This document shows, piece by piece, positions 2,131 through 14,329 of a DNA stretch of 64,000 nt. The number at the start of each line of letters is the position of its first letter. Position 1 is the stretch's first letter. Both the position numbers and the translations under genes were made by a program. The notes under the pieces were generated by a model. The model did no database searches. It saw only the letters and a program-made list of their open reading frames with translations, and was not told the DNA's origin. Source of the stretch: Candidatus Tumulicola sp. (GTDB lineage: Bacteria > Vulcanimicrobiota > Vulcanimicrobiia > Vulcanimicrobiales > Vulcanimicrobiaceae); assembly GCA_036490475.1 (NCBI GenBank), contig DASXDT010000006.1:1302001-1366000 (forward strand), given 5' to 3'.

Positions 2131-2901
2131 GTGAAGTTCGGCATTTACGTTTACGGCTTAGCGGCCATTGCGACCGGAATCGTCGACTTGGTGTGGGGCG
2201 CATTCGACCCCGCCGAGCAGCCGATTCAGGCATTCGGAGATCACGTTCCCGGAGCGCACATTTTCGCGTTGCTCGTGGGTTTGGCGTTGATCGCCGGCGG
2301 CATTTGCGTCCTTAGCCGGCGAGCCGCGCGAATCGGAGCCCCGATTCTGGCCGCCGCGTACGCGCTCTTTGCGATATTCTATCTGCCGAGATTTATTACG
2401 GCCCCGTATTATCTGGGCCAGCACGCAAGCGTCTATGTCAGCGTGCTGGTCGGCGTTTGCCAGCAGCTGATCGTAATCTGCGCGGCGGCGTTGATCTACG
2501 CAGCAAGCATTAGCGGCACATCGCGCAGCGGTGGGTTGCCCAAGGCGATTCGATGGGTATTCGGTTTGAGCGTCATCGTGTTCGGTTGCAACCATCTGTT
2601 GTCGATGCGCGCCAGCGCGCCGTTCGTACCGGCATGGATGCCGTTGGGTCCGTCGTTCTGGGTTGCGTTTACCGGCATCGCCTTCGTTGCGGCCGGCGTG
2701 GCGATCATCATCCGAATCGCCGACGTCCTCGCAGCGCGACTGCTCGCGTTGATGTTGCTGGTGTTTAGCAGCACGACACTCGCTTCGTTCCTGATCGCAG
2801 CGCCGAAGATGGAAGGCAATTGGGGCGCCAACACCTACAACATCATCGCCGCCGCTTCGGCGTGGATCTTGGCGGACTGGCTCGCGGACCGTCCTTGGTA
2901 A
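2131..2901 (+). CDS. polytopic membrane protein, DoxX-like
   Basis: 256 residues starting at a GTG, with a GAGG-type ribosome-binding site about 12 nt upstream. It has seven or eight hydrophobic segments, the first with the Gly-rich YGLAAIATGIVDLVWG motif, then paired helices LLVGLALIAGGICVLSRR and the later IAFVAAGVAIIIRIADV. The repeated pattern of a short helix pair followed by Arg-Arg resembles DoxX/DoxD-type small membrane proteins in two tandem copies. Its role is unknown. Its stop codon overlaps the putative TTG start of the DpnI-like gene, so the two may be co-transcribed and translationally coupled. Confidence 0.6.
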   Translation: MKFGIYVYGLAAIATGIVDLVWGAFDPAEQPIQAFGDHVPGAHIFALLVGLALIAGGICVLSRRAARIGAPILAAAYALFAIFYLPRFITAPYYLGQHASVYVSVLVGVCQQLIVICAAALIYAASISGTSRSGGLPKAIRWVFGLSVIVFGCNHLLSMRASAPFVPAWMPLGPSFWVAFTGIAFVAAGVAIIIRIADVLAARLLALMLLVFSSTTLASFLIAAPKMEGNWGANTYNIIAAASAWILADWLADRPW

Positions 2902-3674
2902 AAGCGCCGACCTGGAAAGATGCTATTCAGCACATCGTGCTCGGACTTCGTCGCGAGTTTTCTCTCGACGATGTCTTGAAGCATCGCGACGCTCTACAGA
3001 AGATGTTTCCCAACAACCGGTTTGTGGATGCGAAGATTCGGCAGAGCCTGCAAGTGTTGCGAGATCAAGGTTTGCTGCAGTTTGTCTCGCCGGGCCGCTA
3101 TCGGCGGAACGACATCGCGCCGGTCTTCAGCCCGATCATCGACATGTCGGTGGCGGCGGAGTTCTTCAGCCAATCGCAAGTCGCGCGGGTGGCGCTCGAA
3201 ACGTGGGCGTCGTTCAATTTGTACTGCGTCAATTGCGAAAGCGACGCGCTCGATCAACTGCGCGACAACACGCCGGTCGCAGACTTTCAATGCTTCGTCT
3301 GCGACAAGACGTACCAGCTCAAGGGCAAGAACGGGCGATTTGGCGAGATGCTCCCTGGTGCTGCGTATGGACCGACGATAGCGGCGGTGCGCGAAGGCCG
3401 AATGCCGGAGTATATCTTGGTGGAGTACGACACGCGCTTCAGGACCGTTGTGTTCGTGGATGCCGTTCCCGGCAAATCGATCACCGAAGACCGCGTGATC
3501 CCCCGCAAACCGCTTTCGGAAAACGCGCGCCGTGCAGGCTGGATCGGTTGCAACATTCGCATCGACGGGCTGCCGTCGGTGCGTCAAGTCGCGCCGGCGG
3601 GTGTCGATCGTGTGTTAGTGCGAACCGAATGGAAAATGCTTGAGGTAGTTAGTGATGAGCGCACGCTTCATTAG
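2895..3674 (+). CDS. DpnI-like methyl-directed endonuclease with permuted domain order
   Basis: About 259 residues from the TTG at 2895, which overlaps the upstream stop; DpnI itself has 254. The catalytic part matches the DpnI/Dam-replacing family: paired Cys-x2-Cys motifs (residues 111/114 and 133/136), the metal-site strand TPVADF with Asp130, a QLK motif (141-143), and the diagnostic NARRAGWIGCNI. In DpnI a winged-helix domain follows the catalytic domain. Here the equivalent of that domain (residues 1-73, with DAKIRQSLQVLRDQGLLQF and GRYRR) comes first. In the family the enzyme cuts N6-methyladenine GATC sites, and both domains read the methylated site. Gln141 sits where DpnI has a metal-binding Glu. 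No methyltransferase gene is nearby, as expected for a methyl-dependent enzyme. The family call is strong; activity is inferred. Confidence 0.85.
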   Translation: MVKAPTWKDAIQHIVLGLRREFSLDDVLKHRDALQKMFPNNRFVDAKIRQSLQVLRDQGLLQFVSPGRYRRNDIAPVFSPIIDMSVAAEFFSQSQVARVALETWASFNLYCVNCESDALDQLRDNTPVADFQCFVCDKTYQLKGKNGRFGEMLPGAAYGPTIAAVREGRMPEYILVEYDTRFRTVVFVDAVPGKSITEDRVIPRKPLSENARRAGWIGCNIRIDGLPSVRQVAPAGVDRVLVRTEWKMLEVVSDERTLH

Positions 3675-8120: not shown

Positions 8121-8276
8121 AATTGCTCCTTGTGGCAGAACGCTGTACGGCGATGCTACCATTGCCGGGCTACCGTGGGGATGGGGAGCCAGCCCTACCT
8201 TTGCATCACCCCGCTACAACGCAGCCTCCCGTGGTGCCATGCGTCTGGCACTAGCTCGTCGTACGATCGTCGTAGG

Positions 8277-11198
8277 ATGAACGGCAAACAGGACGCATCA
8301 CTCCACATGACGCGCGTGGACTTGTCCGGCGCGCAAGATATCCTGGCGAAGTACGACGCCGGGAATCTTGCCGTAGAAGCGGTTCCGGGCGCCGGCAAAA
8401 CGAGCGTAATCGTTCGCCGGCTCGAGCATCTGGTAGAATCCGGCGTGCCGCCGGAACGCATCCTCGCGCTCACGTTCTCGCGGCGAGCGGTTCGCGAACT
8501 GCGCGATCGGATCGGCCGTAGCTTGCCCGGCGTTTCGGGCCGGCTGGAGGTGCGCACGTTCCACGGGTTCGCGTCGCGCCTGCTCGGCATCGATCGCCCC
8601 GGCTTCACATCGGGCCGGCTGGTCGAACGTCCGGTCGCCGAGCTGGTCTTGCGCGAAGCATTTTCGTCGACCCCCGCGCGCGGCTTCGCGCCCAGAGTGC
8701 TGCGTTCGCCATCGTTCGTGCGCGATGCCGAGCGTTACGTCGCCGATTTGCAGCGAGCCGGCGATTCGGTGCGCGCCGAATTGGCGCGCGACGGCAGCGA
8801 ACGTTTGCGCGATTGCATACTTGTATCCGAACGACTCTCGCAACTGCGCCGCGACCTGGGGATCGCCGACTACGACGATCTCGTCGCACGCGCCACCGCG
8901 TTGGCGACCGATCCAACGTCGCGCGTGCATGCCTGGCTACGCGATCGATACGACCACGTGTTGGTCGACGAATTTCAAGACACCGATCCACAACAGGTGC
9001 GGCTGGTCGAAGCGCTGGATGCGACGGTGTTTGCCGTCGGCGACCCGGCGCAGGCGATTTATGGTTTCCGCGGTGCCGCGCGCGATGCCATCGAGCGCGC
9101 CGTACGAACGCTGCACATGCATCGCGAGCGTCTCGACGCATCGCGGCGCTGCCCGCAGGCGATCTGCGACATCGTCAATGCGATTCCGGGACTACCGGAT
9201 GCGCAACGCATGACGACCGCGGTCGAGCACGGCGGAACCGCGTCGGTACTCGTGGCTGCAACGCCGCTCGACGAAGCCTCGCTGGTCGCCGATCGAGTCG
9301 CAGCCGCGTGCGAAGCCGGCGTTGCGCCATCGGAAATCGCAGTGCTGCTGCGATCGCTCGAACCGCTCGGCAGTTTCGTTCGTGCGGAAATCGAACGGCG
9401 CGGCATTCGCGTGGCGCTGTCGGGCGGCGACGCGATCGTGCACGAGCCGGTGGTACGAACGCTGCTCGATGCGCTGCGTGTCGTCGCGGATCCGTCGCAA
9501 CTCGATTGCTGGGCCGATCTCTTCGCGTCGCCGGTGCTCGGCTATCCGCGGTTGCGAGCGTTTCGTGCGCTGCACGCTGCGAAACCCGAAAGCATCGATG
9601 CAGCCTGTGACGTGCTACAGTCGTGCGGTTCCGGACGGGTCGACGCCGGCGCGGTGCGGCACGCGCTGCTCGAAGCGCGCACGGCATGGGAAGGCGGCGA
9701 TGTCGATCGAGCCGCCAACGGCCTCGCGATCGGGCTCGATCTGCTGGGCGCCGTACTCGACACGAGCGATGCCGCCGCGCGTCGCGCCGGCCGCCGTCTG
9801 CGCCGCACGCTCGAAGCACTCGAAGATATCGCAACGGCGCAGCGCCGGCTCGGCCGCGGCGGAAACTCGGATGCGGTGCTATCCGCGTTGCTGGAACATT
9901 CGGCGCAGTGGCCCGACGAAGCCGACGAGTCGAGCGACGGCGATGCCGTGCGCGTGCTGACGATTCACGCGTCGAAGGGCCTCGAGTTCGATACCATCGT
10001 GCTGGCCGATGCGGCCGACGGACACTTGCCCGTCGAGCTACGGCGCGAAGGCATTCTCGACGAATCCGATCTAGTGCTGTCGCGCAGGCTCGGCTGCGAT
10101 CTCGGCGCTACGCCGGCCGAACACGTGGAAGAAGAACGCTCGCTGTTTTACGTGGCCGTCACTCGTTCGAAGCGCGAGCTGATCGTTACGTTTTCGGCCC
10201 ACGGGATCGACGGAACGCCGCAAGCGCCGTCTCGATTCTTACCGTTGCACGAGCGCGATCGCTTGGCGGACGCCGAGCCGTATCGCGCGCCACTGCTGTT
10301 CGACGGTGCGGCAAAACTGCTGCCGGCCTTCGAACCGCGTCCCGTAACGCTGCCGAAGCGCATCGGCGTAACGCGCATCGACGACTGGTTCTCGTGTCCG
10401 CGCAAGTTCTTTTATTCGGCCGTCGTCCGTTTGCCGAGCGAACGCGCGTTTACGATGACGTTCGGCACGTTGGTTCACAAAACGCTCGAACGGTTCCACC
10501 GCGAGTACGGACGCGTCGACGGCGACTCGGATGCGTCGGCGTGGAACGAGCGCATGCGTGCGATTCGGCGCGAGGTATGGCTCGACGCCGGCTTCGATTG
10601 GAAGCTCGAGAGCGATGCCGCCGGCGCCAGTGCCGACCGAATGCTCGAAACCTACGTCCTCGAAACGATCGCGCACGGACGCGAGCGTCCGTTTACCATC
10701 GAGTCGATCGAACGCTGGGTTGAGGCCGACGTCGACGGTAACGAGACGATCGGAAAACTCGACCGCATGGACCGTTTCGACGATGGCTCGTCGCGCATCG
10801 TCGATTACAAGACCGGCCGGTTATACAACGAGCTCCAGGCCGGATTGGAAAAGCTGGTCGACGCGGTCGCAAACGACAAGCTCTACGGCGAAACAACGCC
10901 GAAAATCGCCAGCGTCCAGCTGCCGTTATACCGGCGCGCGCTTGGGGGCGATCCCGAAGTCGAACTGATCTACTTGCGCGGCAAGGACGGCGGCAGCATC
11001 GCGTTCGACGGTCTGGACCGTACGGGAGAAGTCGAGTTGTTGGCTCGGGTCGACGACGCCGTGCGCGCCGGCTTTAGCGATGCGGTGGTTCGGCCGCAGG
11101 CGATGCAACGCACGACCGGCGATTTGCGGGTCTGCCAGCAATGCAATTTCTACGCTATATGCGATGGCGCGCTCGAAGCGGTGGACGCACAAGAATGA
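8277..11198 (+). CDS. AdnA-like UvrD/Rep helicase with C-terminal RecB-type nuclease
   Basis: 973 residues from the ATG at 8277. Superfamily 1 helicase motifs appear in order: Walker A AVPGAGKTS (about 35-43), motif Ia LALTFSRRAVRELRDRI, Walker B DEFQDTDPQQ (about 230), and motif V LTIHASKGLEFDTIV. The C-terminal nuclease has GTLVH, the active-site strand IVDYKTG (about 841), and four Cys (FSCPRKF, then CQQCNFYAIC) that fit a Fe-S staple. Such proteins resect double-strand breaks for recombination. The following gene encodes a second protein of the same architecture with an ATGA overlap, the AdnA/AdnB arrangement of actinobacteria rather than AddAB, where only one subunit has a full helicase. 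A TACGAT box ends 9 nt before the start. Confidence 0.85.
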   Translation: MNGKQDASLHMTRVDLSGAQDILAKYDAGNLAVEAVPGAGKTSVIVRRLEHLVESGVPPERILALTFSRRAVRELRDRIGRSLPGVSGRLEVRTFHGFASRLLGIDRPGFTSGRLVERPVAELVLREAFSSTPARGFAPRVLRSPSFVRDAERYVADLQRAGDSVRAELARDGSERLRDCILVSERLSQLRRDLGIADYDDLVARATALATDPTSRVHAWLRDRYDHVLVDEFQDTDPQQVRLVEALDATVFAVGDPAQAIYGFRGAARDAIERAVRTLHMHRERLDASRRCPQAICDIVNAIPGLPDAQRMTTAVEHGGTASVLVAATPLDEASLVADRVAAACEAGVAPSEIAVLLRSLEPLGSFVRAEIERRGIRVALSGGDAIVHEPVVRTLLDALRVVADPSQLDCWADLFASPVLGYPRLRAFRALHAAKPESIDAACDVLQSCGSGRVDAGAVRHALLEARTAWEGGDVDRAANGLAIGLDLLGAVLDTSDAAARRAGRRLRRTLEALEDIATAQRRLGRGGNSDAVLSALLEHSAQWPDEADESSDGDAVRVLTIHASKGLEFDTIVLADAADGHLPVELRREGILDESDLVLSRRLGCDLGATPAEHVEEERSLFYVAVTRSKRELIVTFSAHGIDGTPQAPSRFLPLHERDRLADAEPYRAPLLFDGAAKLLPAFEPRPVTLPKRIGVTRIDDWFSCPRKFFYSAVVRLPSERAFTMTFGTLVHKTLERFHREYGRVDGDSDASAWNERMRAIRREVWLDAGFDWKLESDAAGASADRMLETYVLETIAHGRERPFTIESIERWVEADVDGNETIGKLDRMDRFDDGSSRIVDYKTGRLYNELQAGLEKLVDAVANDKLYGETTPKIASVQLPLYRRALGGDPEVELIYLRGKDGGSIAFDGLDRTGEVELLARVDDAVRAGFSDAVVRPQAMQRTTGDLRVCQQCNFYAICDGALEAVDAQE

Positions 11199-14100
11199 GC
11201 GCGTTCGACGTTCGGATCTTCGGCGAACGGCAACCCACCGCCGAACAACTGCGAGCCATCTCCGCACCGGCCGACGGCCGCCGCGCGATCGACGCCGGCG
11301 CCGGCACCGGAAAGACCACGACGCTCGAGCTACGCGCATTGTATTTGGTCGCGAGCGGCGCCATTCGACCCGAAGAGTTGCTGGTGGTCACGTTCACGCG
11401 CAAAGCCGCTGCCGAAATCGGCGAACGCATTTTACGGACGTTGGACCGCGAGCGAGAGCACTCCGAGGACGATCCGCACGGCGTGACGTGCTGCACGATC
11501 CACTCCCTCGCGTCGCGGATTCTCGACGAGTTCTCGTACGCGCACGGCGAAGCGGCGCCGCCGCGTCCGCTGGCCGATGCCGAGGCACGCGCGTTATTCG
11601 ACGAAGTGATGGACGAAGCGTTCGACGGCGTTTTGAACGCGCCGGTCGACGCGCTTCCGGTGTTCGAAATCAAACCAGCCGAACTGCGCAGCGCGTTCGC
11701 GACGTTGGTGCTGAGGCTAAAACAAGCCGGTATCGATCCCGAAACGTTCGAACGCGAAGGACTCAAAGCGGCGGCGGTATTGGGTGCTCAACCGTGGGGG
11801 CAGCTCTGGCAAGTGGGAAAGAACGGCAAACCGATCGCTCACATTCCCAAGCCCGAACGCACCGAACGCCAACGCCGCATCGAATCCGAGCGCGAAGCCT
11901 CCAACGTGCGCTTTGCCACTGCCGTGTATCGGCGATTCAATCGCCGACTCGAGGAAGCGCAAGCCGCGACCTACGCCGATCTCTTAACGCAAGCGACCGC
12001 GTTGCTCGAAGCGCACCCGGAGATCGGTGCGACGTTACGCCGCCGTTGGAACTACGTGCTGATCGACGAGTTTCAGGACACGGCGCCGGCGCAGATGTCG
12101 TTTCTACGAGCGTTGTTTGGGGATCCCGAACACCCCGAGCGCGAATTGCTGCGCGTGATGGCGGTCGGCGATTTCCGCCAAGCGATCTACGGCTTCAACG
12201 GCGCCGATCCATCGATCATGCAGCGCTTCGCAAAGAGCGCCGACGACGTGTACGCACTCGGTGAGAACCGCCGTTCGACCGAGCAGATTCTCGCCGTTGC
12301 GCACGGCGCGCTGTCGGCGGCCGCCGGCGAATTCGAACCGGGCGACCCGATGACGGCCCGGCGCGGCGCGGCACCGGTGGCCTGCGTATTTGCCGGCGTA
12401 TTTGGCGCGCCGGGCGCTCCGATCGCACAGCGCATCGAAGCCGAGGCGGATGCGATCGCCGACGAGATCGTACGCTTGCGTACCGAGAACGTCGCCGCCG
12501 GCGATATCGCGTTGCTATTGCGCAAACGCACGCACGCACATCGCTACGTACGCGCGCTGGCGCGCCGCGGTATTCCGGTCGCGCTCGACCGCCGTTCGGG
12601 CCTACTGGAGATGCCCGAGATTCGCGATGCGCGCGCGTGGCTGCGTTTGTTGACCGACTTCGGTAAACCGACCGCGCTGACGCTCGCATTGGTGCGGGTA
12701 CTCCAATCGCCACAGGTGCGTCTCGACGACGAAGGGTTGGCGCAAATCGCGGCGTGCGCGGATCGCGATTGGGCCGGTGTGGTGCTCGATGGTACCGCGG
12801 ACGAGCGGCTCGACGAGCGGGTTCGCGCCAAGCTGCGGAGCGTGCGCGAGTGGCTGACCGAACTGCTGCCGGGGCGCACGGAGACGGCGACGCTCGGCGT
12901 CCGGCGGCTCTTTGCGACGGTGCCGTTGGCGGCATCGTACGCCGGCGATACGCAAGCCGAGCAGCGACTGGCGAATTTGCGCGCGTTCGAACTCTTGGCG
13001 CAACGCTTTGCCGCCGACGCGGTCGACCCGAGGTTGCCGGAGTTCGTTCGCTATTGCGAGCGCTGCGTCGATTTCGAGGAATCGGTAGAAGAAGCCGATC
13101 TGGATGCCGGCGGCGTAGCCGTTATGACCGTGCATCAGGCCAAAGGCTTGGAGTGGAACGCGGTGTTCGTTCCGGGCGCCGACCCAATGCACTACTCGAA
13201 TCGACTGACGGTCGGCCCCGTTCGTTGGGACGACCGGCATGGCGCACTGGTTATGAGCCGCGACATCGACGATTGTTTGACGTTACGCAACATTATGATG
13301 AGATGCGACTACGACCCGCAAACGGGAGAGTTCGCCAAAGAGGATGCGCGCAAGCGGCGCCGCGCCGACGAGGAGTGTCGGGTGCTGTACGTCGCGCTTA
13401 CGCGTGCGCGCGACCGGCTGTACGTGTCGAGTCCGAGCGGCGAAAAAAGGACGCATCCGAGTTTCGACGCGATCGTCCGGTCGGCGTCGGCCTGGCCCAA
13501 GTACCCGGTCGAAATATCCGAGGAACCGGCACGCGTGCAGCAGCGAACGACGCGCGTGGAAGCCTACGAACCGTTGCGGTTGCCCTTCGACGACGTGCCG
13601 GCCCCCGTACCGTCGTTTACGGCGTTATCGACGTATCGGACGTGTCCGCGATCGGCGCGCTACAAGTACCGCTTGCGCTTGCCCGAACTCGAAGGCTTGC
13701 ACGAACGCGAAACGCCGGGAGCGGCGAGCGAATGGGCGCTCGATCCGGCGTCATTTGGTTCGCTCATTCACCGCGCGCTCGAACTGTGGGGACAAGCACG
13801 AATCGACGGCGAGCCGATCGATACGGAACTGGCGCTGCAGAACGCGTTGGTCGACTTCGACAACGCGTCCGACGCGGATCGTGCGCGCGCGCGCGCGGTA
13901 TTGGCGAAGGCCGTGCCGGTGCTCGATGGCTTAACGTTCGTTGCGGTCGAGACGGGATTCGATCACGAGGTGGATGGCGTCAGCTTAAGTGGCGTGATCG
14001 ATTTGATCGCGCGCGATGCGGATGGCACGCTGCTGGTGGTCGATTACAAGACCGGCACGGCGATTGCCGACGAGTATTACGGGCTGCAGCTCGACTTGTA

Positions 14101-14329
14101 CGCGCGTGCGGCACGCGAGCGCTACGCGGGCGAACGGCTGCACGCTCGGATTCTGCGGTTATCGGAATCGCAAGCGCAGTGGCGCGATGCGATTCCCACG
14201 GCGCCGCGGGAACTCGAGCGACTACTACGCGATTCCGACGGCTTTCGTTCGGACGAAGCCAAGGTGGGACCGCATTGCTCGACGTGTCCGTACAACGGCG
14301 CGCCTTGCCACGCGCCTAGCGAACGGTAA
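11195..14329 (+). CDS. AdnB-like (AddA/UvrD-type) helicase with C-terminal RecB-type nuclease
   Basis: 1044 residues; the ATG at 11195 overlaps the previous stop (ATGA). Helicase motifs: Walker A GAGTGKTTT (about 33-41), TFTRKAAAEIGERIL, LIDEFQDTAPAQ (about 288), QAIYGFNGADPS, and TVHQAKGLEWNAVFV (about 645). The nuclease domain has TCPRSARYKYRL, GSLIHRALELW, VVDYKTGTAIADEYY (about 948) and the closing CSTCPYNGAPC, again a four-Cys Fe-S pattern. Both subunits of the pair thus carry a motor and a nuclease, as in mycobacterial AdnAB. It should form a heterodimer with the upstream product and process DNA ends. It meets the Vgb-like gene tail to tail with a 14-bp overlap. Confidence 0.88.
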   Translation: MSAFDVRIFGERQPTAEQLRAISAPADGRRAIDAGAGTGKTTTLELRALYLVASGAIRPEELLVVTFTRKAAAEIGERILRTLDREREHSEDDPHGVTCCTIHSLASRILDEFSYAHGEAAPPRPLADAEARALFDEVMDEAFDGVLNAPVDALPVFEIKPAELRSAFATLVLRLKQAGIDPETFEREGLKAAAVLGAQPWGQLWQVGKNGKPIAHIPKPERTERQRRIESEREASNVRFATAVYRRFNRRLEEAQAATYADLLTQATALLEAHPEIGATLRRRWNYVLIDEFQDTAPAQMSFLRALFGDPEHPERELLRVMAVGDFRQAIYGFNGADPSIMQRFAKSADDVYALGENRRSTEQILAVAHGALSAAAGEFEPGDPMTARRGAAPVACVFAGVFGAPGAPIAQRIEAEADAIADEIVRLRTENVAAGDIALLLRKRTHAHRYVRALARRGIPVALDRRSGLLEMPEIRDARAWLRLLTDFGKPTALTLALVRVLQSPQVRLDDEGLAQIAACADRDWAGVVLDGTADERLDERVRAKLRSVREWLTELLPGRTETATLGVRRLFATVPLAASYAGDTQAEQRLANLRAFELLAQRFAADAVDPRLPEFVRYCERCVDFEESVEEADLDAGGVAVMTVHQAKGLEWNAVFVPGADPMHYSNRLTVGPVRWDDRHGALVMSRDIDDCLTLRNIMMRCDYDPQTGEFAKEDARKRRRADEECRVLYVALTRARDRLYVSSPSGEKRTHPSFDAIVRSASAWPKYPVEISEEPARVQQRTTRVEAYEPLRLPFDDVPAPVPSFTALSTYRTCPRSARYKYRLRLPELEGLHERETPGAASEWALDPASFGSLIHRALELWGQARIDGEPIDTELALQNALVDFDNASDADRARARAVLAKAVPVLDGLTFVAVETGFDHEVDGVSLSGVIDLIARDADGTLLVVDYKTGTAIADEYYGLQLDLYARAARERYAGERLHARILRLSESQAQWRDAIPTAPRELERLLRDSDGFRSDEAKVGPHCSTCPYNGAPCHAPSER

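Follow-up and report, generated by a model that had tools for sequence, protein, structure and literature searches.

A DpnI-family protein of Eremiobacterota with the winged helix ahead of the catalytic domain

In one class of Eremiobacterota, homologues of the restriction endonuclease DpnI carry their two domains in reversed order, the winged helix (wH) first and the catalytic domain second; the example described here lies in a 64,000-nucleotide stretch (the window) of a Candidatus Tumulicola genome. Within the sample, the permuted architecture and its occurrence as a single clade-specific branch are nearly certain. Judged from its sequence, the gene probably (probability about 0.6) encodes a functional m6A-dependent restriction endonuclease of the DpnI superfamily, built as a wH followed by a PD-(D/Q)xK nuclease. 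No description of a wH-first DpnI order was found in the literature searched.

The reading frame of the gene is uninterrupted (Table 1), and its start codon, which overlaps the stop codon of an upstream DoxX-like open reading frame (2131-2901; DoxX match under its cut-off), falls at the same alignment position as the ATG in homologues (LVKAPTWKD in the window protein, MPKTATWKD and MGKSVTWKD in homologues). Pfam profiles place PF17726 first (E 1.7e-18, 67.0 bits, cut-off 23) and PF06044 second (E 7e-41, 140.3 bits, cut-off 26.7), chance is excluded as the source of these matches, and PADLOC labels the protein a type II methyl-directed restriction enzyme (E 5.6e-46). Apart from these two domains, a Pfam search at E-values up to 0.1 returned nothing, including any HNH or GIY-YIG nuclease domain. 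The sole relative in the PDB found by phmmer is DpnI (4esj, 4kyw), in which chain positions 11-156 are matched by residues 85-231 of the window protein and positions 205-256 by residues 20-71, so that the order is the reverse of the catalytic-then-wH order that marks the DpnI family. The initial annotation had likened residues 1-73 to the wH of DpnI and residues from about 80 to 259 to its catalytic domain; the profile and PDB matches agree with both, as does the superposition on 4kyw for the catalytic part, and the motifs it had listed (PVADF, NARRAGWIGCNI and two Cys pairs) are all found in the protein.

Table 1. Coordinates of the permuted DpnI homologue and its features in the window.
Feature	Position	Strand	Remarks
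Domain-permuted DpnI homologue gene	2895..3674	+	259 aa, TTG start, TAG stop 3672-3674
Winged-helix (wH) domain, PF17726 DpnI_C	2910..3104	+	residues 6-70
K47 and R49, equivalent to DpnI K229 and R231, recognition helix	3033..3041	+	residue alignment
New junction/linker, residues 72-82	3108..3140	+	former C-terminus joined to former N-terminus
Catalytic domain core, PF06044 DpnI, residues 82-232	3138..3590	+	extends to C-terminal helix, residues 239-258
Two CxxC pairs, C111/C114 and C133/C136	3225..3302	+	sequence, alignment
Active site D130, Q141, K143, equivalent to DpnI D53, E64, K66	3282..3323	+	PD-QxK, not PD-ExK
GATC/methyl pocket R204, L207, R213, W216, G218, equivalent to DpnI R126, L129, R135, W138, G140	3504..3548	+	all invariant

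An AlphaFold2 model of the protein, built from the permuted family with canonical rows added domain by domain, has a mean pLDDT of 94.3, and its catalytic part fits 4kyw with 1.4 A rmsd over 176 columns (Foldseek). The protein starts where the wH of DpnI starts and ends in the helix that precedes the wH in DpnI; the breaks thus fall within inter-domain linkers, and the entire DpnI chain is retained, rotated. Whereas the two domains of DpnI are connected through the last catalytic helix and the first wH helix, the permuted protein has a short linker of 11 residues, with S79 invariant across the family, that leads from the wH wing straight into the N-terminal catalytic helix reading the minor groove. 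The proposal that the DpnI domains had been permuted or re-fused in reverse is backed by profiles, the PDB sequence match, this model and the tree described below: at the N-terminus stands a domain that matches the wH of DpnI, and the reversed order is not the norm of the family.

PF06044 occurs in 18 of 149 Eremiobacterota genomes, all 18 with the wH before the catalytic domain; the carriers belong to one class and 11 genera, and 17 of the frames are intact. A canonical (catalytic-wH) copy was not found in the 149 genomes, whereas outside this phylum, among the matches listed, the order is catalytic-wH in all of about 90 homologues, which represent more than 15 phyla. That the domain order stems from misassembly, a frame error or a fusion in a single genome is extremely improbable, and this reading was rejected: many of the genomes are metagenome-assembled (MAGs), but the same order stands in single open frames in all 18, and MAG contigs deposited for this phylum show it too. 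A broader scan covered one genome per species (84,980 species, at least 80 loci kept); the Eremiobacterota loci were wH-catalytic and all other two-domain proteins catalytic-wH among the matches listed, and as the queries were two peptide patterns, one typical of the permuted wH, any bias would be toward permuted proteins. Proteins with both domains were likewise all catalytic-wH in a Chloroflexota sample (400 genomes, including a PF17726 search), in the phylum of an Abditibacteriota record (291 genomes) and in that of an Acidobacteriota record (396 genomes). A variant with tandem winged helices (catalytic-wH-wH, 336 aa; L051/L195) was seen in Abditibacteriota.

In a tree of the catalytic domain, the 17 permuted rows form one branch (SH-aLRT 100) opposite all canonical sequences. 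The wH tree (80 columns) is weak; it fits a single origin with two label changes and groups 16 of the 17 permuted winged helices, but it does not tell which wH they derive from, and, its sample being without wH-GIY-YIG or wH-HNH sequences, the wH may have come from a different wH-first nuclease. The reversal apparently arose once and is confined, in the sample, to Eremiobacterota, and its distribution over two families (f1 and f3) of the class argues that it is old. The permuted gene of seven genomes, from five genera, lies beside the same 415-aa neighbour, and in five of these a protein of about 222 aa also adjoins it; we take the former to be GlyA and the latter uracil phosphoribosyltransferase, with atp genes presumably nearby. 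The window's copy is located elsewhere, without this glyA-like neighbourhood and with no evident defence island around it. Pairs of permuted genes give dN/dS of about 0.08-0.15, with dS near saturation, and the gene is a long-resident chromosomal one under purifying selection. A mobile or phage origin was considered and rejected; viral contigs gave no relative, phage records a single wH-only match, and plasmids only canonical or wH-only matches.

Residues were compared across 89 sequences (17 permuted, 72 canonical); positions are numbered as in DpnI and roles are those described for that enzyme (PMC4117772). The equivalents of catalytic D53 (the bridging residue) and K66 are invariant in the permuted family. 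The same holds for R126 and R135, which with N48 read the outer guanines, and for the methyl pocket (L129, R135, W138, G140), while N48 and Q18 are kept in 16 of 17 (roles from PMC4117772); the residues that read the G:C pairs and the two m6A methyl groups are thus in place. In the wH, K229 and R231 of the recognition helix, which are required for DNA binding and whose substitution (K229A/R231A) perturbs how the DpnI catalytic domain binds DNA (PMC4117772), are invariant in 89/89 sequences, and Q232 is also kept in the permuted family. Other positions have changed. All 17 permuted sequences have Q at the position of the metal ligand E64, so that the active site departs from PD-ExK at this one residue; D78, which in DpnI touches DNA by its main chain and not its side chain (PMC4117772), is G in 17/17; the equivalent of S17 differs from DpnI; wH Y210, present in 72/72 canonical sequences, is lost; and wH Q233, present in 71/72, is S or T. 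The pattern suggests that specificity was retained while the inter-domain or effector surroundings were altered, the latter step being the more conjectural.

A dead enzyme from E64Q alone is a weakened candidate, and a PD-QxK protein may still be active, because Q64 also occurs in 10/72 canonical members. These deep-branching relatives (Anaerolineaceae, Acidobacteriota, Elusimicrobiota, Nitrospirota and archaea; for example L031, L038, L032, L063 and L028) share PD-QxK with the permuted family but have the catalytic-wH order, and two of them (L031 and L038) have G78 as well. One of them, L028, from a Nitrospirae MAG, is nearly identical to L030 from a Candidatus Methanoperedens MAG, by recent cross-domain transfer or a binning error.

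As a functional m6A-dependent endonuclease, the protein would, as in DpnI, bind one fully methylated GATC through its wH as effector and cut Gm6ATC with its catalytic domain, and its role would be defence against Dam-methylated phage and plasmid DNA. Since the wH now stands upstream and the minor-groove helix follows it after a short linker, the two binding events would be coupled by a path other than that of DpnI. The suggestion in the initial annotation that the two-step recognition may be wired differently fits the loss of Y210 and Q233 from the wH, and also the coexistence of the gene with DpnII-type systems.

On the same 1.75-Mb contig as the permuted gene and 119 kb from it (approximately C6:1425039-1428354), the window genome (G000) carries a DpnII-type cassette composed of a Dam-family methylase (TIGR00571, 195 bits, cut-off 114.85), an N6/N4 methylase of the DpnA type and a PF04556 DpnII nuclease. 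The components of a DpnII/MboI-type system, M1 (D12), M2 (DpnA type) and the PF04556 restriction endonuclease (REase), are thus all together. The three genes have 34%, 53% and 35% identity to those of LlaDCHI, a GATC system carried by the Lactococcus plasmid pSRQ700 (PMC4190342; PMC6458302), and an alignment of the methylase to E. coli Dam runs across the NGLCR.N.RGEFNVPFGRY segment. A second genome (G050) also has this trio, at a distance of 3.3 kb from its permuted gene, and in both genomes the cassette should methylate GATC; PF04556 was found in 4 of the 149 Eremiobacterota genomes, and these two are the ones that also carry the permuted gene. A D12 methylase in G094 is below the dam cut-off and best matches another PADLOC model, and so was not counted as GATC-specific. 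The window holds 516 GATC sites per 64 kb against 526 expected; avoidance of GATC as a trace of restriction is thus not seen, and with so many sites a cell would be expected to die if DpnI and a DpnII methylase were active in it together.

Elsewhere such genes exclude one another: a Neisseria genotype is dam or drg but not both (PMC516771), and in the pneumococcus the DpnI cassette is an alternative to the DpnII one (PMC12707154). A survey of wH fusions met fewer than 100 potential conflicts among more than 1,000 proteins and left them unexplained (PMC11037411). In 50 genomes hosting canonical DpnI, no complete DpnII nuclease was found, one match being ended by a contig end; against 2/18 permuted carriers the counts are too small for enrichment to be claimed. 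Traces of dam were also seen in genomes with DpnI homologues. In G185, a canonical DpnI gene (C19:46529-47298; L204, about 1160-1480) stands directly behind an N-terminal Dam remnant (KWAGGK...PFIGGGALFF...), a 'dam-replacing' footprint like that of Neisseria drg in a different phylum, and N-terminal or split dam fragments, apparently adjacent by position, occur in the same genome as the homologue in four further cases (G180/L065, G165/L045, G195/L091 and G198/L098). In G042, which has a lone Dam-family methylase, two cancelling frameshifts scramble the methyl-pocket region of the permuted gene (L153:6171-6920), through either decay or long-read indel error.

If the permuted protein is a functional endonuclease, then in the two genomes that also have a GATC methylase either the nuclease or the methylase would be silent, or the nuclease would be weaker on the methylated chromosome. 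It is quite possible, if short of an even chance, that the conflict is only apparent, with the cassette silent or recently acquired or with strains mixed in the assembly, an account compatible with a functional enzyme. The third-position GC of the G000 cassette is 0.51-0.64 against about 0.7 for most neighbouring genes, the REase of G050 reads CRG in place of the RFD motif, and in G042 the methylase is alone and the permuted gene carries its two frameshifts; in G000 and G050, however, methylases and nuclease gene share one contig with the permuted gene, at the distances given above, with open frames and intact DPPY motifs.

Rather unlikely, by our estimate, is that the protein still binds Gm6ATC but acts in an attenuated or conditional manner on the host chromosome, by nicking, through a need for paired sites or as a regulatory binder, and would therefore be able to live with a GATC methylase. 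This would suit the coexistence in 2/18 genomes, where both kinds of gene are under purifying selection, as well as the fixed E64Q and D78G and the lost wH Y210 and Q233. Dam-family methylases are, moreover, not depleted among permuted carriers in the window's family, with 3 above the cut-off against about 2 expected if that family comprises about 99 genomes. However, these numbers are too small to demonstrate an absence of exclusion, D53 and K66 are invariant, and of the ten canonical relatives with Q64, the 8 whose genomes were searched gave no Dam-family match, which is what active enzymes would lead one to expect. A more specific proposal, that permutation, loss of canonical wH residues and E64Q together rewired the two-site coupling, is unlikely; the enzyme might then tolerate a chromosome fully m6A-methylated at GATC, for example if its action were limited to one particular arrangement of sites or to incoming DNA. 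If that were true, DpnI-type and DpnII-type defences would operate in one cell, contrary to the textbook pneumococcal model.

Quite unlikely is a shift of the enzyme to another mark or context, such as m6A in another sequence or a different modification, which would remove the conflict with DpnII. The equivalents of S17, D78 and wH Q233 do differ from DpnI, and such a possibility has been suggested for other conflict cases (PMC11037411), but the side chains directed to the outer guanines and the methyl pocket are kept. A functional enzyme specific for methylated GATC is the reading preferred here.

R.DpnI and its isoschizomers FcyTI, Psp4BI and NmeBII/Drg are PD-(D/E)XK-wH enzymes of type IIM/IIE. 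The permuted protein shares with this group both domains, both CxxC pairs, the catalytic D and K, the base and methyl contacts and wH K229/R231; it differs in domain order, in E64Q and D78G, in the loss of wH Y210 and Q233, and in its coexistence with a DpnII-type system in the window genome, which contrasts with the exclusion described above for Neisseria (dam and drg; PMC516771) and the pneumococcus (DpnI and DpnII; PMC12707154). Solo wH-first m6A nucleases (wH-HNH and wH-GIY-YIG) also place an N-terminal wH reader of m6A before a nuclease, but here the nuclease is the DpnI catalytic domain with its own GATC/m6A readers; the permuted protein is not HNH, GIY-YIG or Mrr and has no NTPase. DpnI is the type IIE model in which effector and catalytic domains read the same methylated site and communicate, and a natural, old and vertically kept rotation separates what each domain reads from how the domains are wired. 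Because DpnII-type genes occur in the same genomes, the 'genomic conflict' cases that the earlier survey left unexplained (PMC11037411) become directly testable.

The window also contains, at 8130-14329, two adjoining UvrD-type helicase genes, the first of which (8130-11198) has a PD-(D/E)XK domain as well, a feature shared with AddB/AddA-type recombination nucleases. Among other wH-bearing proteins, the Lactiplantibacillus plantarum plasmid NZ_CP028223.1 (L170:1285-2664) encodes a DpnI-type wH (residues 73-139, E 2.8e-23, KIRQ motif kept) joined to the front of an RNA polymerase sigma factor from the sigma-70 family; the product may be a sigma factor that senses methylation. In three Chloroflexota loci (L190, L192 and L193), a C-terminal DpnI-type wH follows a domain that by eye is phospholipase D-like (PLD), and PLD-wH proteins are already known (PMC11037411).
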